21,180 nucleotides of DNA, taken from a virus. Each line of letters begins with the position of its first letter. Position 1 is the first letter of the stretch. This document shows, in pieces, positions 4,656-20,908 of the stretch. Below the pieces are notes generated by a model, which was not told where the DNA came from, made no database searches, and saw only the letters and a program-made list of their open reading frames with translations. The stretch spans positions 1 through 21,180 of the IMG/VR virus record IMGVR_UViG_3300044695_002543; one strand, written 5' to 3'. The translations under genes and the position numbers were made by a program.

Positions 4656-5331
4656 GGTCATTATACATTTTCGACCGTTCAACGTTAGATTCTTTAGTCA
4701 AGTCTGTGTGATCATAATCCATTATGTCTGTATCTGGAGTAACCCAACGCATATTTCTTTCTGCTGTCCATAATGTTTCATTATATTTACGATGTATAAC
4801 AATGTCTTTTTTCACAGTAAATGATGGATCGTGCATAACTAATCTATTATTTGGTTGAATTGCAAAGTTACCATTATCCATCTTAATAAAGTGTCCACAT
4901 TTATGTTGAGATGGAAATTCACTTAAAGTAAAATCTGTATCGCTGCTATCGCTTGAACTGGCCCAATCTAATGTAAATAGATATCTTCCAGTATACTCCG
5001 CTCTTCTTCGTGATATAAACTTACAAGTATGATTTCGTAGTATAGGATATGATGTAACTGAAATATGATAACTAAAAGAATCCCACAAAACTAATTCATC
5101 TAATTCTTGTTCTGGAGCATCATCTTTCCAACAAAATGCGTGTATTGGCATTCTCCACCAAAGACCGCCATCCTCCATAATAAAATGGAATAGTGGGGCT
5201 TGTGCTGGTATAGAAGTCATACCAAATATATGGCATGGAAATTTCTTATCAAAAGAGTCTTCTTGATTTCTAAGAAAGTTACCTCTTATGTACGCTGAAA
5301 CAACTGGTATTGGAGTATTAAGATATGACAT
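4642..5331 (-). CDS. Hypothetical protein coupled to the DUF1501 gene, 229 aa
   Basis: Not recognised. The protein is soluble-looking, without a signal peptide or membrane helix, rich in aromatic residues and with several Cys and His (HIFGMTSIPAQAPLFHFIME at 34-53, GGLWWRMPIHAFCWKDD at 55-71). The middle alternates beta-like strands, including DSFSYHISVTSYPI and GRYLFTLDWASS. The C-terminus is acidic. The ATG at 5331 overlaps the DUF1501 stop as TAATG with only a weak AAGAG upstream, so translation probably depends on that of DUF1501. This suggests, but does not show, a shared role. It is the last gene of the operon from the promoter at 7774. Confidence 0.75.
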   Translation of the reverse strand: MSYLNTPIPVVSAYIRGNFLRNQEDSFDKKFPCHIFGMTSIPAQAPLFHFIMEDGGLWWRMPIHAFCWKDDAPEQELDELVLWDSFSYHISVTSYPILRNHTCKFISRRRAEYTGRYLFTLDWASSSDSSDTDFTLSEFPSQHKCGHFIKMDNGNFAIQPNNRLVMHDPSFTVKKDIVIHRKYNETLWTAERNMRWVTPDTDIMDYDHTDLTKESNVERSKMYNDLDKG

Positions 5332-6575
5332 TAGAATAGCTCTTTTATTACTTTGCCACTATTAGCAATCTTCATCGGTCTTCCATTCTTAGAAGTAAAT
5401 GTTGTCTCTAACGATATTCCTAAACTTCTTAAAACACTAGCCATCAAATCTTGTGAGGTATATGATTCCCCAATTACTTGCTTACCATCTTCGCTGGTTT
5501 GACCAACAACAAGACCAGTTTTAAATCCAGCACCGCCAACAACAACGCTCCAACTTCTGGCCCAATGATCGCGACCAGCATTGCCATTAATATTTGGTGT
5601 GCGACCAAACTCTCCCATCCATATAATTGCTGTATCTTGCAATAGACCGCGACTATCCAAATCTTCTATTAAAGCACTCATCGCTTTATCCATTTCTGGT
5701 AGTTTTTGATTCTCTAATGTTGGAAAGATGTTATTATGATTATCCCAGCCGCCCAAGTCTACTTCTATAAACGGAACCCCTGCTTCTACCAATCTTCGTG
5801 CCATTAAGCATCCACGACCAAATCCAGTATTACCATATCTTTCTCTTACTTCTGTTGGTTCTTTGGCAACTTTAAATGCTTCCATTTGAGGACTGCTCAT
5901 TAGTTTTGTTGTTTTTGTTAAGACTTTTAGATGATCACTAGCAAAATCTCCCCTATTTTGAGATATAAACTGGTCTTCTATTGTCTTAAGCATAGTTAGC
6001 CTTTGGTTCAATCTATTCATATCTAAACCCATATTAAGATTGCGGATATTGCCATTGCTGTCAACAACAAATGGGGCGTAACTCATACCAAGAAATCCCG
6101 GTCCAACGCTACCGCCACCTACGCTAACAAACGGTGGAATTTCTAATTCTGGGATTTGATCAATTAACTCATGAGATATAACGCTACCATAACTAGGATA
6201 ATCTATAGTTTGACTTGGAACGTATCCAGTATGCATGTAATATCGTCCGCGACCATGATCGGCTTCTCGCGTACTCATATTTCTTACTATACTTAGCTTG
6301 TCCATGTTTTTAGCAAGCAAAGGTAAGTGTTCGCATATTTGAACACCATCAGCACTTGTATCTATTGGTCTAAATGGACCGCCAGTAACTCCACCAGATT
6401 TTAAATCCCAAATATCTATGGTACTTGGTCCACCACTCATCCATAAAAGGATTGCACTCTTATGTCTCTTCTTTAAGTCAGAAGAATTTGCGAGTATAGT
6501 ATTGGTAAAATTTGTTGCTGGAATTGATAGTGCTGAAGTGGCAGCTAAATGTGATAAGAAATGCCTTCTGTTCAT
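5331..6575 (-). CDS. DUF1501 protein with Tat signal, 414 aa
   Basis: Predicted exported protein of the DUF1501 family, which belongs to the alkaline phosphatase/sulfatase-like fold and is very abundant in Planctomycetes; its activity is unknown. Residues 1-30 are a twin-arginine signal (NRRHFLSHLA, then a hydrophobic stretch). Family motifs occur in the usual order: LWMSGGPSTIDIWD at 44-57, a central PSYGSVIS, RERYG near 244-248, ARRLVEAGVPFIEVD at 259-273, GGWDNHNN at 275-282, GEFGRTP at 321-327, AGRDHW at 333-338 and a C-terminal SLGI..NGRP. Length and motif content indicate an intact protein. The start has GGAG six bases upstream. It sits 9 bp after one phage gene and overlaps the next (TAATG), so it is built into the phage operon rather than inserted as a separate cassette. 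Probably host-derived; base composition matches its AT-rich neighbours. Confidence 0.93.
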   Translation of the reverse strand: MNRRHFLSHLAATSALSIPATNFTNTILANSSDLKKRHKSAILLWMSGGPSTIDIWDLKSGGVTGGPFRPIDTSADGVQICEHLPLLAKNMDKLSIVRNMSTREADHGRGRYYMHTGYVPSQTIDYPSYGSVISHELIDQIPELEIPPFVSVGGGSVGPGFLGMSYAPFVVDSNGNIRNLNMGLDMNRLNQRLTMLKTIEDQFISQNRGDFASDHLKVLTKTTKLMSSPQMEAFKVAKEPTEVRERYGNTGFGRGCLMARRLVEAGVPFIEVDLGGWDNHNNIFPTLENQKLPEMDKAMSALIEDLDSRGLLQDTAIIWMGEFGRTPNINGNAGRDHWARSWSVVVGGAGFKTGLVVGQTSEDGKQVIGESYTSQDLMASVLRSLGISLETTFTSKNGRPMKIANSGKVIKELF

Positions 6576-10857: not shown

Positions 10858-10878
10858 ATTCAGGTAAGACAGCCCTTG

Positions 10879-10907
10879 ATTATACATCGGGTTTCTGTGG
10901 TTGTCAA
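10879..10907 (-). promoter_or_regulatory. Sigma70-type promoter between two repeats
   Basis: TTGACA at 10902-10907, a 17-bp spacer containing CCCGATG, TATAAT at 10879-10884. It is flanked by copies A and B of the 33-bp repeat and drives the zinc-ribbon gene at 10804. Confidence 0.82.
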
Positions 10908-10924
10908 CTTGAAAAAATCAAATC

Positions 10925-10957
10925 TCACTGACTACCAGTAAAGGCCAGATCTGATTA
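10925..10957. repeat. 33-bp direct repeat, copy B
   Basis: Begins exactly 100 bp from copy A, with 32 of 33 bases identical. In minus-strand RNA its outer flanks form TCTCAC/GTGAGA (10964-10969 with 10923-10928), followed by TTTGATTTTTT, so here it also looks like a terminator for the gene at 10973. The next minus-strand feature is the -35 box, 17 bp away. Confidence 0.85.
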
Positions 10958-10972
10958 TATAGGGTGAGACAA

Positions 10973-11224
10973 TCATGCGATTATCTTCAATTCCCCTGTA
11001 CTACCATTAAAAGAAGCAAAGAAGCTCTTGCTGATATACTTACCTTCGATACCATCAACGAGCCGCTTACTATATACGTTAATGCGCCAACGGTCATCGT
11101 ATACGTTCATGCTCTTGCACATAAGATAATCCTTTGGCTTTTCAACATGATTGAATATCACATCACACGGAGTAATATTCCAATCGTTCAGTTTCTTAAC
11201 TGGAAATCCATCAATATTCTTCAT
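10973..11224 (-). CDS. Hypothetical protein, 83 aa
   Basis: Start at 11224 (MKNIDGFPVKKLNDWNITPC), nine bases after GGAG; the ATG at 11239 is itself part of that site region. The sequence has several aromatic residues and two Cys, and ends in beta-type strands (RWRINVYSKRLV, SKSFFASFNGS). No family recognised. It has a long leader from the promoter at 11369 that contains a switch-like hairpin pair. Confidence 0.65.
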   Translation of the reverse strand: MKNIDGFPVKKLNDWNITPCDVIFNHVEKPKDYLMCKSMNVYDDRWRINVYSKRLVDGIEGKYISKSFFASFNGSTGELKIIA

Positions 11225-11362
11225 AATATAATTCTCCATAATGAAATCTCACTGACTGTATTGCAATATGTTGATCTCGACGCTTCGCGTGAGACACCCC
11301 ACGATTTCGTTAGATTATCCAAATCCCCCATCTTAACATATGAGAGAATACGATAATCCCAC
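11225..11362 (-). promoter_or_regulatory. Long structured 5' leader with competing stems
   Basis: From the predicted start near 11362 to the start codon at 11224 there are about 138 bases. Minus-strand TCTCAC (11294-11289) can pair either with the nearby GAGA across a tight GAA-loop stem (ACGC/GCGT, with one bulged C), or with GTGAGA at 11252-11247, just before the ribosome binding site. The outer blocks (GTCTCAC and GTCAGTGAGATTT) are shared with repeat copy B. The inner sequence differs. Looks like a cis-regulatory RNA. Confidence 0.45.
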
Positions 11363-18422: not shown

Positions 18423-18622
18423 TACTTCAATCCCTCTCTTATCATTTGTATTAGATTAGAAGCATCGCCCAAAGCCGCAGATTCAAAATCATCATCAAGG
18501 TTTTCGGCAACATTATCAAGTATACTCTCAATGTTCAATAATGCAATAGCCATATCTTTTGACGATAGATCGTCACTATCAATACTAAGAGCATCTGATA
18601 TTTGTTTTTTACTTATTCTCAT
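18422..18622 (-). CDS. Small acidic helical protein, 66 aa
   Basis: Short acidic protein (ISDALSIDSDDLSSKDMAIA, ILDNVAENLDDDFESAALGD), predicted all-helical. AAGGGAAAAG precedes the ATG at 18622. Its leader is the structured segment 18639-18787, which ends in an attenuator-like hairpin, so expression may be conditional. Function unknown. Confidence 0.65.
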   Translation of the reverse strand: MRISKKQISDALSIDSDDLSSKDMAIALLNIESILDNVAENLDDDFESAALGDASNLIQMIREGLK

Positions 18623-18638
18623 CTTTTCCCTTTGTATT

Positions 18639-18787
18639 AAAAACCAGCGAATCTTTTACGCCCCGATTCTATGAAAACCGCCCACGGAAATCCTTCCTAG
18701 GCATAGTTCATGACTCATGCCGTCTGGCTCTTGGGAACGGTTACTGGTTGTATTGGCCGTGGTGGGGACTGCTACTCCCCATAGATA
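18639..18787 (-). ncRNA. Structured leader RNA or small RNA 2
   Basis: From the start predicted near 18787: TGGGGA-7-TCCCCA (18781-18776 with 18768-18763), an outer CCACGG/CCGTGG stem (18762-18757 with 18687-18682) that encloses about 70 bases including GGCAT/ATGCC (18721-18717 with 18704-18700), then GAATC-11-GATTC (18669-18665 with 18653-18649), followed by a U5 run at 18643-18639. No reading frame is present. Reads as a riboswitch-like leader with terminator for the gene at 18622, or a free small RNA. Not matched to any class I know. Confidence 0.5.
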
Positions 18788-18793
18788 GGCACT

Positions 18794-18821
18794 ACTATAC
18801 AGCGTATAAGCCCGCTGTCAA
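18794..18821 (-). promoter_or_regulatory. Sigma70-type promoter for RNA 2
   Basis: TTGACA at 18816-18821, a 16-bp spacer, TATAGT at 18794-18799. The nearest coding start is 172 bases further on, so it makes a long leader or a separate RNA. Confidence 0.75.
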
Positions 18822-18829
18822 CCCCACGC

Positions 18830-19083
18830 TGCATAACAGCCGTAGGTTTATCGTAATGGCTTATCCCTATCTAGTCGCAGACATTGACCCACGGAAGTTT
18901 ATGACTAGACAGGCTCCTTACTGCAACTTTCCCAGTGTGACGATTCTTTAACATCTCTTGGCGAGTTCTCTCGTCTAGTCTTTGTATTGTTAGGACCGAT
19001 TGTAGAAGACGTTTCCTAGGACATCAACTACCGTTTTTACCGGCTACTCGGCCCGACATAGCCAACAAGCGTTTGCTTGTTCT
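18830..19083 (-). ncRNA. Candidate structured RNA 1, about 250 nt
   Basis: Starts near 19083 with a tight hairpin, AACAAGC-AAAC-GCTTGTT (19081-19064), then GGCTA/TAGCC (19063-19059 with 19046-19042) and a perfect 8-bp long-range stem GACTAGAC/GTCTAGTC (18980-18973 with 18910-18903) that encloses CGAG-AGAA-CTCG. No open frame with a ribosome binding site. It ends before the next promoter, near a GCTG/CAGC hairpin at about 18828-18840. Neither tmRNA nor RNase P signatures are visible. Confidence 0.5.
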
Positions 19084-19089
19084 TCAATC

Positions 19090-19118
19090 ATTCTACACTA
19101 CTAATATCGGCCTGTCAA
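19090..19118 (-). promoter_or_regulatory. Sigma70-type promoter for RNA 1
   Basis: TTGACA at 19113-19118, a 17-bp spacer with GGCCGATATTAG, TAGAAT at 19090-19095. AAAAAATATTTTTT lies 11 bp upstream. No gene follows for over 450 bp. Confidence 0.82.
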
Positions 19119-19147
19119 TAGGGTTTCTTGAAAAAATATTTTTTGCT

Positions 19148-19227
19148 CTAAGTCTTTAGCTGGTAAGGGTTTACGGCGAATCGGGCGGGCCGGGCCGAAC
19201 CTAAGTCCTTGCCCAGTAACGACTTAC
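19148..19227. repeat. Bipartite hairpin cassette R5
   Basis: Hairpin a: CTAAGTCTTT (19148-19157) with AAGGGTTTAC (19165-19174), which pairs well only in plus-strand sense, the reverse of other copies. Hairpin b: CTAAGTCCTT (19201-19210) with AACGACTTAC (19218-19227), Watson-Crick with one mismatch. Core ATCGGGCGGGCCGGGCC has R1/R2 orientation. The TAA stop of the gene at 19224 lies in the last arm. Confidence 0.82.
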
Positions 19228-20203: not shown

Positions 20204-20908
20204 CTAGTGGGCGGGAAACAACACGTTAGCCAAACCGCGAACGCACATGTCACATGATACACTACCTTTGGTCGGAGTGCAAGTGACAACTCCGCGACCG
20301 CGACGGATTTCTGGGCAAACAACATACTTAGTATCGTCAATCACAACCAGTTTGGGCAAGGATTTCCGCCAAGCATCGGCCAGATTCTTACGCTTGGGAC
20401 GCTTTTTCGCAACCTTTTCGTCGCTGTCGCACCACGCGAACAGTTTGAAACCAGCAGCAACCGCAGCGGCCTTATCGTTAGCGTTATGGATGCTAGCATA
20501 TACATTCATATACTTTTCCATATCCACAAGCCGACTATCGTAGATATGAGTATAAAACCACATGTCGGGCAGAGTTTTACCCTCACTTACGATACTCTCA
20601 CATGCCCAAATGACATTCTGAACATATTCGGTGTCAAGTTGGCCGTTGAGAAACCAATCGCCCCGCTCATGCCAGCGAATAGACTTCTCTTTAGAAATAG
20701 CGTCAAGGATCATCGCCCGAATACGATGCTTTTCGGTAATAATGTTTACCATGCCAGCAGGGCGAACGTTAGGATACATTTTCTCGGTCTGCTCGGCATA
20801 ACAGCCGTTACCAAGAAAATCACACGAACTAGGGCAAGTATCGCCAACGGGACGCGAAACAACCAAGCAACCCTTACCCAACTTATCGTTACCGTTTGCA
20901 ACTTTCAT
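20204..20908 (-). CDS. Cys-rich phage protein, GP88/DUF7227-like, 234 aa
   Basis: The N-terminus has KLGKGCLVVSRPVGDTCPSSC (about 9-29) followed by GNGCYAEQ, a Cys-rich pattern (C14, C25, C29, C36) similar to phage GP88/DUF7227-type proteins, and RWHERGDWF near 78-86. The C-terminus holds another Cys set (VVCPEIRRGRG, then TCTP, then SCDMC), so two metal or Fe-S clusters are possible. A central WFYTHIYD and DMWFY pattern suggests a TIM-like or radical-SAM-like barrel, but the classical CxxxCxxC is absent. Function unknown. AGGAG lies six bases upstream of the ATG; the promoter at 20930 fits. Confidence 0.55.
   Translation of the reverse strand: MKVANGNDKLGKGCLVVSRPVGDTCPSSCDFLGNGCYAEQTEKMYPNVRPAGMVNIITEKHRIRAMILDAISKEKSIRWHERGDWFLNGQLDTEYVQNVIWACESIVSEGKTLPDMWFYTHIYDSRLVDMEKYMNVYASIHNANDKAAAVAAGFKLFAWCDSDEKVAKKRPKRKNLADAWRKSLPKLVVIDDTKYVVCPEIRRGRGVVTCTPTKGSVSCDMCVRGLANVLFPAH

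Follow-up and report, generated by a model that had tools for sequence, protein, structure and literature searches.

The window analysed here, a 21,180-nucleotide stretch of the IMG/VR virus record IMGVR_UViG_3300044695_002543, carries on its minus strand a locus in which one promoter is followed by a series of self-contained RNA modules, each with its own closing stem and joined to the next by A-rich linkers with the consensus AATACAA. Comparison with related phages shows that whole modules come and go and replace one another, with the exchanges taking place at the linkers. In the window, the promoter (19118-19090) is followed by four modules in the order M1, M3, M2 and Z (Table 1), and the occurrence of the same modules in other combinations among related phages suggests that they may form a recombining RNA toolkit. 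The array itself is well supported, and the best-supported reading of it is that the transcript would be a precursor of several autonomous RNAs.

Table 1. Features of the array and its surroundings, in order of transcription (coordinates are those of the window).
Feature	Position	Strand	Remarks
Promoter TTGACA-17-TAGAAT	19090..19118	-	11 of 12 consensus letters
Module M1	18991..19085	-	22-sequence alignment (21 distinct)
M1 5' hairpin AACAAGC/GCTTGTT	19081-19064	-	
M1 hairpin	19063-19042	-	loop GGGCCGA can pair with 18999-18993 (candidate pseudoknot)
M1 hairpin	19031-19002	-	invariant CCTAGGAA loop
Linker AATACAA, M1 to M3	18982..18988	-	
Module M3	18903..18980	-	78 nt, closed by perfect 8-bp stem GACTAGAC/GTCTAGTC
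A-rich linker ATAAA, M3 to M2	18898..18902	-	direct reading
Module M2	18757..18897	-	79-sequence alignment
M2 pseudoknot	18865-18858 with loop of hairpin overlapping 18821-18794	-	GATAAGCC with GGCTTAT loop
Promoter-like match	18794..18821	-	conserved M2 stem, no promoter (covariation in relatives)
Linker AATACAA, M2 to Z	18748..18754	-	
Module Z, usual last module	18642..18748	-	77 distinct relatives
Z stems	within 18642..18748	-	closing ACCAG/CTGGT; AACCG/CGGTT stem; GAATC/GATTC hairpin
Linker AATACAA, after Z, ahead of next gene	18632..18638	-	
Small downstream gene, 66 aa	18422..18622	-	no Pfam match; not fixed among relatives

The structured non-coding RNA begins at the promoter, and TTGACA together with TANNNT is found upstream of all 21 M1 copies with enough upstream sequence. 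In a looser test, 60 of 77 arrays have a TTGAC/TANNNT pair no more than 90 nt upstream of their first recognised module, compared with 154 of 1540 control stretches. A sequence-only reading of this DNA had proposed a new phage non-coding RNA of about 250 nt, placed in a gene-free stretch behind a strong promoter. The promoter and the RNA are both real, and there is no minus-strand ORF of at least 40 aa between the gene at 18622 and position 19148, but the supposed single RNA is part of a longer array of linker-separated modules. The stretch originally delimited comprises M1, M3 and half of M2, and its 3' limit was set too early, as the RNA continues to about 18642, just short of the gene at 18622; the real object is thus larger. 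It was also described as less AT-rich than the spacers next to it, which is correct in part: the RNA has 48.6% GC and the window as a whole 40.2%, but the spacer just upstream (19119-19223) also has 48.6% GC. Folding energy was rejected as evidence for the shorter stretch, as it is not above chance (z = -0.96, with 33 of 200 shuffles folding equally well); for the full 461 nt, z = -2.61. The case for a structured RNA rests on covariation rather than on folding energy: conservation of the stems in relatives had been named beforehand as the test of the proposal, and the stems are kept by compensatory changes.

Other parts of the window have features of their own. A GC-rich repeat, GTAAGTCCTT...AAGGGTTTAGG...CGGGCC, is dispersed over positions 19230-19130, 15707-15600, 21070-21000, 17850-17760 and 11540-11430, and at several of these sites an A/T block and a promoter come next, ahead of genes. 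On the minus strand at 10860-11300 the motif ATCAGATCTGGCC..TACTGGTAGTCAGTGA is present twice around a promoter-like site with no clear gene, and this is possibly another non-coding RNA. The minus-strand gene at 5331-6575 encodes a DUF1501 protein (Pfam E 3e-101) and adjoins a gene matching PHROG 'ferredoxin', which is unusual in a phage.

M1 opens with the tight 5'-terminal hairpin that had been recognised from the sequence. In its alignment 98.5% of cells are paired, and both-side changes are present in 8 pairs compared with 2.2 in shuffles (0/500), with six of the eight resting on one sequence each. The candidate pseudoknot is nearly invariant and never covaries. The invariant hairpin loop contains the palindrome CCUAGG, through which two copies could plausibly kiss.

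The perfect 8-bp pairing noted earlier as a long-range stem (18980-18973 with 18910-18903) is present, but it is not long-range, as it closes the 78-nt unit M3, which most relatives lack at this position. Sequence comparison shows that the stretch 18980-18901 is missing from most relatives, with the flanking sides joined directly, and M3 is absent from the other M1-M2 relatives that were read. Four distinct M3 sequences have a common core and three different closing stems, that of the window, GGAACTG/CAGTTCC (L054, L088) and CAGCAGA/TCTGCTG (L207), and M3 is the clearest case of a self-contained unit. The linker that follows it in the window departs from AATACAA, and ATAAAC likewise stands directly after M3 in L042 and L187.

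M2 is modelled as a pseudoknotted inner domain with a cloverleaf-like exterior, which consists of a closing stem and hairpins resembling the D-arm and the T-arm. Across 79 distinct sequences and 43 pairs, including those of the pseudoknot, 93.9% of cells are paired, and both-side changes occur in 26 pairs compared with 16.6 in shuffles; the covariation score is 0.263, compared with 0.135 when shuffled (0/500) and at most 0.084 when slid. Within the pseudoknot, pair 41-128 is C-G in 52 sequences and G-C in 27. The sequence-only reading had ended the RNA before another promoter at 18821-18794, but this match is spurious. It lies within M2, only 29 of 79 M2 relatives retain at least five of six letters in both hexamers, and its letters covary as the opposite strands of a stem do; we therefore rejected it as a promoter. 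G-U cells greatly outnumber A-C cells in the stems of both M2 (224 versus 37) and M1 (62 versus 6), and although standard pairing guided the drawing of the structures, this favours a structure kept in the RNA of the minus strand.

For Z, both-side changes are seen in 20 of 33 alifold pairs among 77 sequences, and other module families behave similarly, with 26 of 44 pairs in M19 (16 sequences) and 12 of 22 in M11 (43 sequences); these are raw counts without a shuffle control, and relatedness among the sequences can inflate them. The linker motif AATACAA occurs 14 times in the window compared with 6.2 expected, three of these within the array. An ORF begins about 20 nt after Z in the window and in some relatives, and in L207, a contig of another phage type, M3 lies directly ahead of an ORF, as might be anticipated if the RNA were a riboswitch or other 5' leader acting in cis on the next gene. 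We regard this as very unlikely. By the rule used, 30 of 71 Z copies have no such ORF, and the ORFs after the other 41 copies are dissimilar, sorting into 18 clusters of which the largest has seven members, which argues against a cis role; moreover, some arrays run straight into a new promoter.

Relatives were retrieved through a nearby gene (20204-20908, Pfam GP88), with 80 IMG/VR loci kept of 113 stretches encoding a relative, and these contain structured segments in differing combinations with AATACAA-type linkers between them. Pattern scans of IMG/VR matched Z in 89 stretches, M2 in 87, M1 in 29, M5 in 11 and M3 in 5, although the Z pattern, judged by its length and degeneracy, must have some chance matches, and some of its matches carry no modules. 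Searching with 18 module seeds plus Z yielded 233 array pieces in 213 sequences, 130 of them distinct. Eighty-eight distinct arrays have at least two modules, drawn from about 20 families in 42 orders once the M2/M15/M18 superfamily is merged (51 as labelled, with M2, M15 and M18 counted apart and some matches split), and some of the arrays counted are truncated by contig ends. The modules are about 54-170 nt long, each with its own closing stem. M1 (23 arrays), M2 (19) and M11 (19) are the commonest first recognised modules, and M11 also occurs as a solitary element in many relatives, for example at L117:7708-7783, about 1.3 kb from the array.

The boundaries of the modules coincide with the places where arrays differ. 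Among 65 arrays there are 749 distinct internal break-points of homology, and 356 of these (47.5%) are within 3 nt of a linker compared with 6.1% of random positions, although the break-points are not independent and many arrays have a shared history. In 12 representative linker-bounded segments, one of which begins in a promoter, the ends of a segment pair with each other better than with the ends of other segments (mean run 5.83 versus 4.15, a value reached in none of 2000 shuffles). When such segments are clustered by single linkage, families are merged. Integron attC sites are hairpins of one DNA strand that serve site-specific recombination, and break-points at a short common sequence could be taken to reflect a similar DNA-level cassette system, whose modules would have no function as RNA. 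Ordinary homologous recombination also predicts break-points at shared linkers, however, and the excess of G-U over A-C in stems, the conserved pseudoknot and loops, which exceed the needs of hairpin sites, and the conserved promoter facing the array all speak for RNA, such that we consider a DNA cassette the least credible of the alternatives, with hardly any chance of being correct.

The main rival to a precursor of autonomous RNAs is a single multi-domain RNA, in which the modules would be domains of one scaffold or homo-oligomer like GOLLD and ROOL, the 3' domain, Z, being fixed and the 5' domains interchangeable. Of the 88 arrays, 64 contain Z and 62 have it as their last module, and there is usually one array locus per contig: among whole contigs of 54-244 kb, M2 is found in 18 of 20, mostly as a single match, the exceptions being one contig with two adjacent copies, one with a weak second match elsewhere and one with copies at both contig ends. 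The putative kissing loop of M1 could also be accommodated in such an oligomer. Set against this, the orders vary freely, each module has a closing stem of its own and neither the window array nor 18 related loci have an Rfam match to GOLLD or ROOL. In addition, the 204-kb contig L207 has five stem-closed RNA elements in a row (L207:4060-4720), two of which are M5 and M3 with the same cores as in the array phages, the M5 being nearly identical, but with different spacers; the elements are separated by AT-rich sequence rather than AATACAA, and the module search recognised no Z in this array. We therefore think a single scaffold unlikely, with perhaps a one in five prospect, and continue with separate RNAs as the preferred reading.

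Two elements are related to tRNA. M7 scores above the 29-bit threshold of the Rfam tRNA model (RF00005) in L109 (35.0 bits) and L153 (32.6 bits), the L148 copy not being among the matches listed, and a tRNA-like element at L180:4173-4245 scores 37.8 bits. The latter is nested in a further module positioned after Z (L180:4080-4275), with the linker ACAAAC and with AATACAA at its end, and similar sequence also follows in L060 and L061. These scores show that M7 and the L180 element descend from tRNA. The predicted folds of M2, M4 and M16 combine a long arm and a T-arm-like hairpin with a closing stem, and those of M2 and M4 also include a D-arm-like hairpin, but for these three, and for M5, the predicted likeness to tRNA amounts to resemblance only: M2 of the window array has no match to the tRNA model up to E 10, nor have M3, M5, M4, M16, M6 and Z of L209 up to E 5. 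ARAGORN called no tRNA at M7, the L180 element or any other module in the window and 16 related loci. In L109 the two strands of the M7 anticodon stem are separated by 39 nt that replace the anticodon loop, and M7 thus cannot decode.

The tRNA homology of M7 and the L180 element, together with the presence of real tRNA genes in many of the array phages, would suit a cluster of degenerate tRNAs and stable RNAs that aids phage translation, in the manner of the T4 tRNA operon, rather than one acting against host defences. We judge this improbable, as M7 has lost the means to decode, tRNAs are a minority among the modules, and AATACAA linkers are lacking at the genuine tRNA genes of the window.

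Array content changes quickly relative to the neighbouring gene. Although a comparison of 38 distinct gene-plus-array combinations is biased against equal arrays by the prior removal of identical combinations, individual pairs are free of this bias: phages with GP88 genes 98.1% identical have M7-M15-Z (L025) and M2-Z (L022), a pair at 97.9% has M8-M2-Z (L080) and M1-M2-M6-Z (L084), and a pair at 96.7% has M2-Z (L038) and M4-Z (L019). Such fast exchange would be typical of loci under varying selection, for example by host defences.

We propose that transcription of the array yields one precursor in which each module folds separately, and that cuts in the single-stranded linkers would free several stable small RNAs. 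In M2, CCA is present at the linker in 29 of 79 copies, with the linker but no CCA in 28 and neither in 22, and because of the CCA-bearing copies the tRNA-like modules might perhaps be cut by host tRNA-processing enzymes. Several modules may be derived from tRNA or imitate it, with the anticodon arm replaced so that they would not decode; we therefore propose that they act as decoys or inhibitors, binding host proteins that recognise RNA shapes such as the elbow or acceptor stem of tRNA. The likeliest targets would be enzymes of host defence or stress, and this would account for the differing module sets of closely related phages; tRNA mimicry, the strong promoter and the fast turnover suggest that such decoys or inhibitors may work against host systems that recognise RNA or cut tRNA. 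Phage tRNAs are described as countering tRNA-targeting defence systems (PMC11555353, PMC10264068, PMC13096335). As a whole, one transcript giving autonomous tRNA-mimicking or aptamer-like RNAs with variable host targets, such as defence, is the best explanation, and we put its chances at slightly better than even. Against it, only M7 and the L180 element pass the tRNA covariance model, no defence gene or target was linked to any module in this analysis, and Z is usually present and last, so that the modules might act together in a single RNA molecule.

A broader proposal, put forward more tentatively and with somewhat less than an even chance, is that these arrays constitute a viral locus of a new type, namely a recombining collection of structured RNA effectors that act autonomously ('RNA cassettes'), many on tRNA-like scaffolds, expressed from one promoter and reassorted through a common linker, as an RNA counterpart of anti-defence islands. 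To our knowledge, proteins account for almost everything described in phage counter-defence, with a few tRNAs and RNA anti-CRISPRs besides. Structured RNAs of about 20 families, mixed among dozens of freshwater phages, would hold a wealth of new RNA folds, and would also yield RNA inhibitors and a natural example of modular RNA design; with the module boundaries, promoter and structures all predicted, these ideas are directly testable.

Comparison with known families gave few matches. At gathering scores Rfam has no match in the window array and no GOLLD or ROOL there or in 18 related loci, in agreement with the initial failure to place the RNA with either, and up to E 10 the window array gives two weak sub-threshold matches only, neither to GOLLD or ROOL. 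The only families reaching gathering scores across the related loci are tRNA and, outside the arrays, the Pistol ribozyme (RF02679, 55.7 bits; L093:5432-5494 on the plus strand and L209:2645-2707 on the minus strand), each about 200 nt from a tRNA-Arg gene. Neither the window nor the L207 and L209 arrays have a match among the INPHARED cultured phages; three weak 27-nt matches in cultured phages (E 0.7) were taken as chance. In cellular genomes the M1 pattern has no match and the M2 pattern six, with modules found by the module search in just one of these, the 4.6-kb contig L213 from a Lake Lanier bin whose Alphaproteobacteria label is no evidence of the host. The open-licence literature searched yielded no account of arrays of this kind.

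Several known RNAs nevertheless share features with the arrays. Phage T4 makes RNAs C and D, unexplained stable non-tRNA RNAs, together with its tRNAs, but these are two fixed RNAs rather than a reshuffled family of about 20, and the likeness is one of description only. Bacterial Y RNAs have tRNA-like modules with a tRNA-like exterior and a replaced anticodon arm, as do the tRNA-like array modules. A Y RNA/Ro60 reading was rejected for the phage side, as none of 15 phage contigs of 166-244 kb has a Ro60 (TROVE) gene, the control search being positive in Deinobacterium chartae; a host could supply Ro60. In tmRNA, a T-arm and acceptor are mounted on a pseudoknotted body, an outline similar to that of M2, but no tmRNA was called by ARAGORN, either in the window or in 16 related loci. 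GOLLD and ROOL are, like the arrays, phage-borne, structured, non-coding and located near tRNA genes, and GOLLD is described as constant in its 3' part and variable in its 5' part (PMC12286853); the arrays differ from both in consisting of separate, linker-joined and exchangeable modules. Phage tRNA clusters likewise have several stable RNAs behind a strong promoter and may have a role against tRNA-targeting defence (PMC11555353, PMC10264068), and M7 is itself a tRNA homologue. The arrays differ in that the majority of their modules fall outside the tRNA family, M7 lacks an anticodon loop, and the modules are separated by AATACAA and shuffled between phages.
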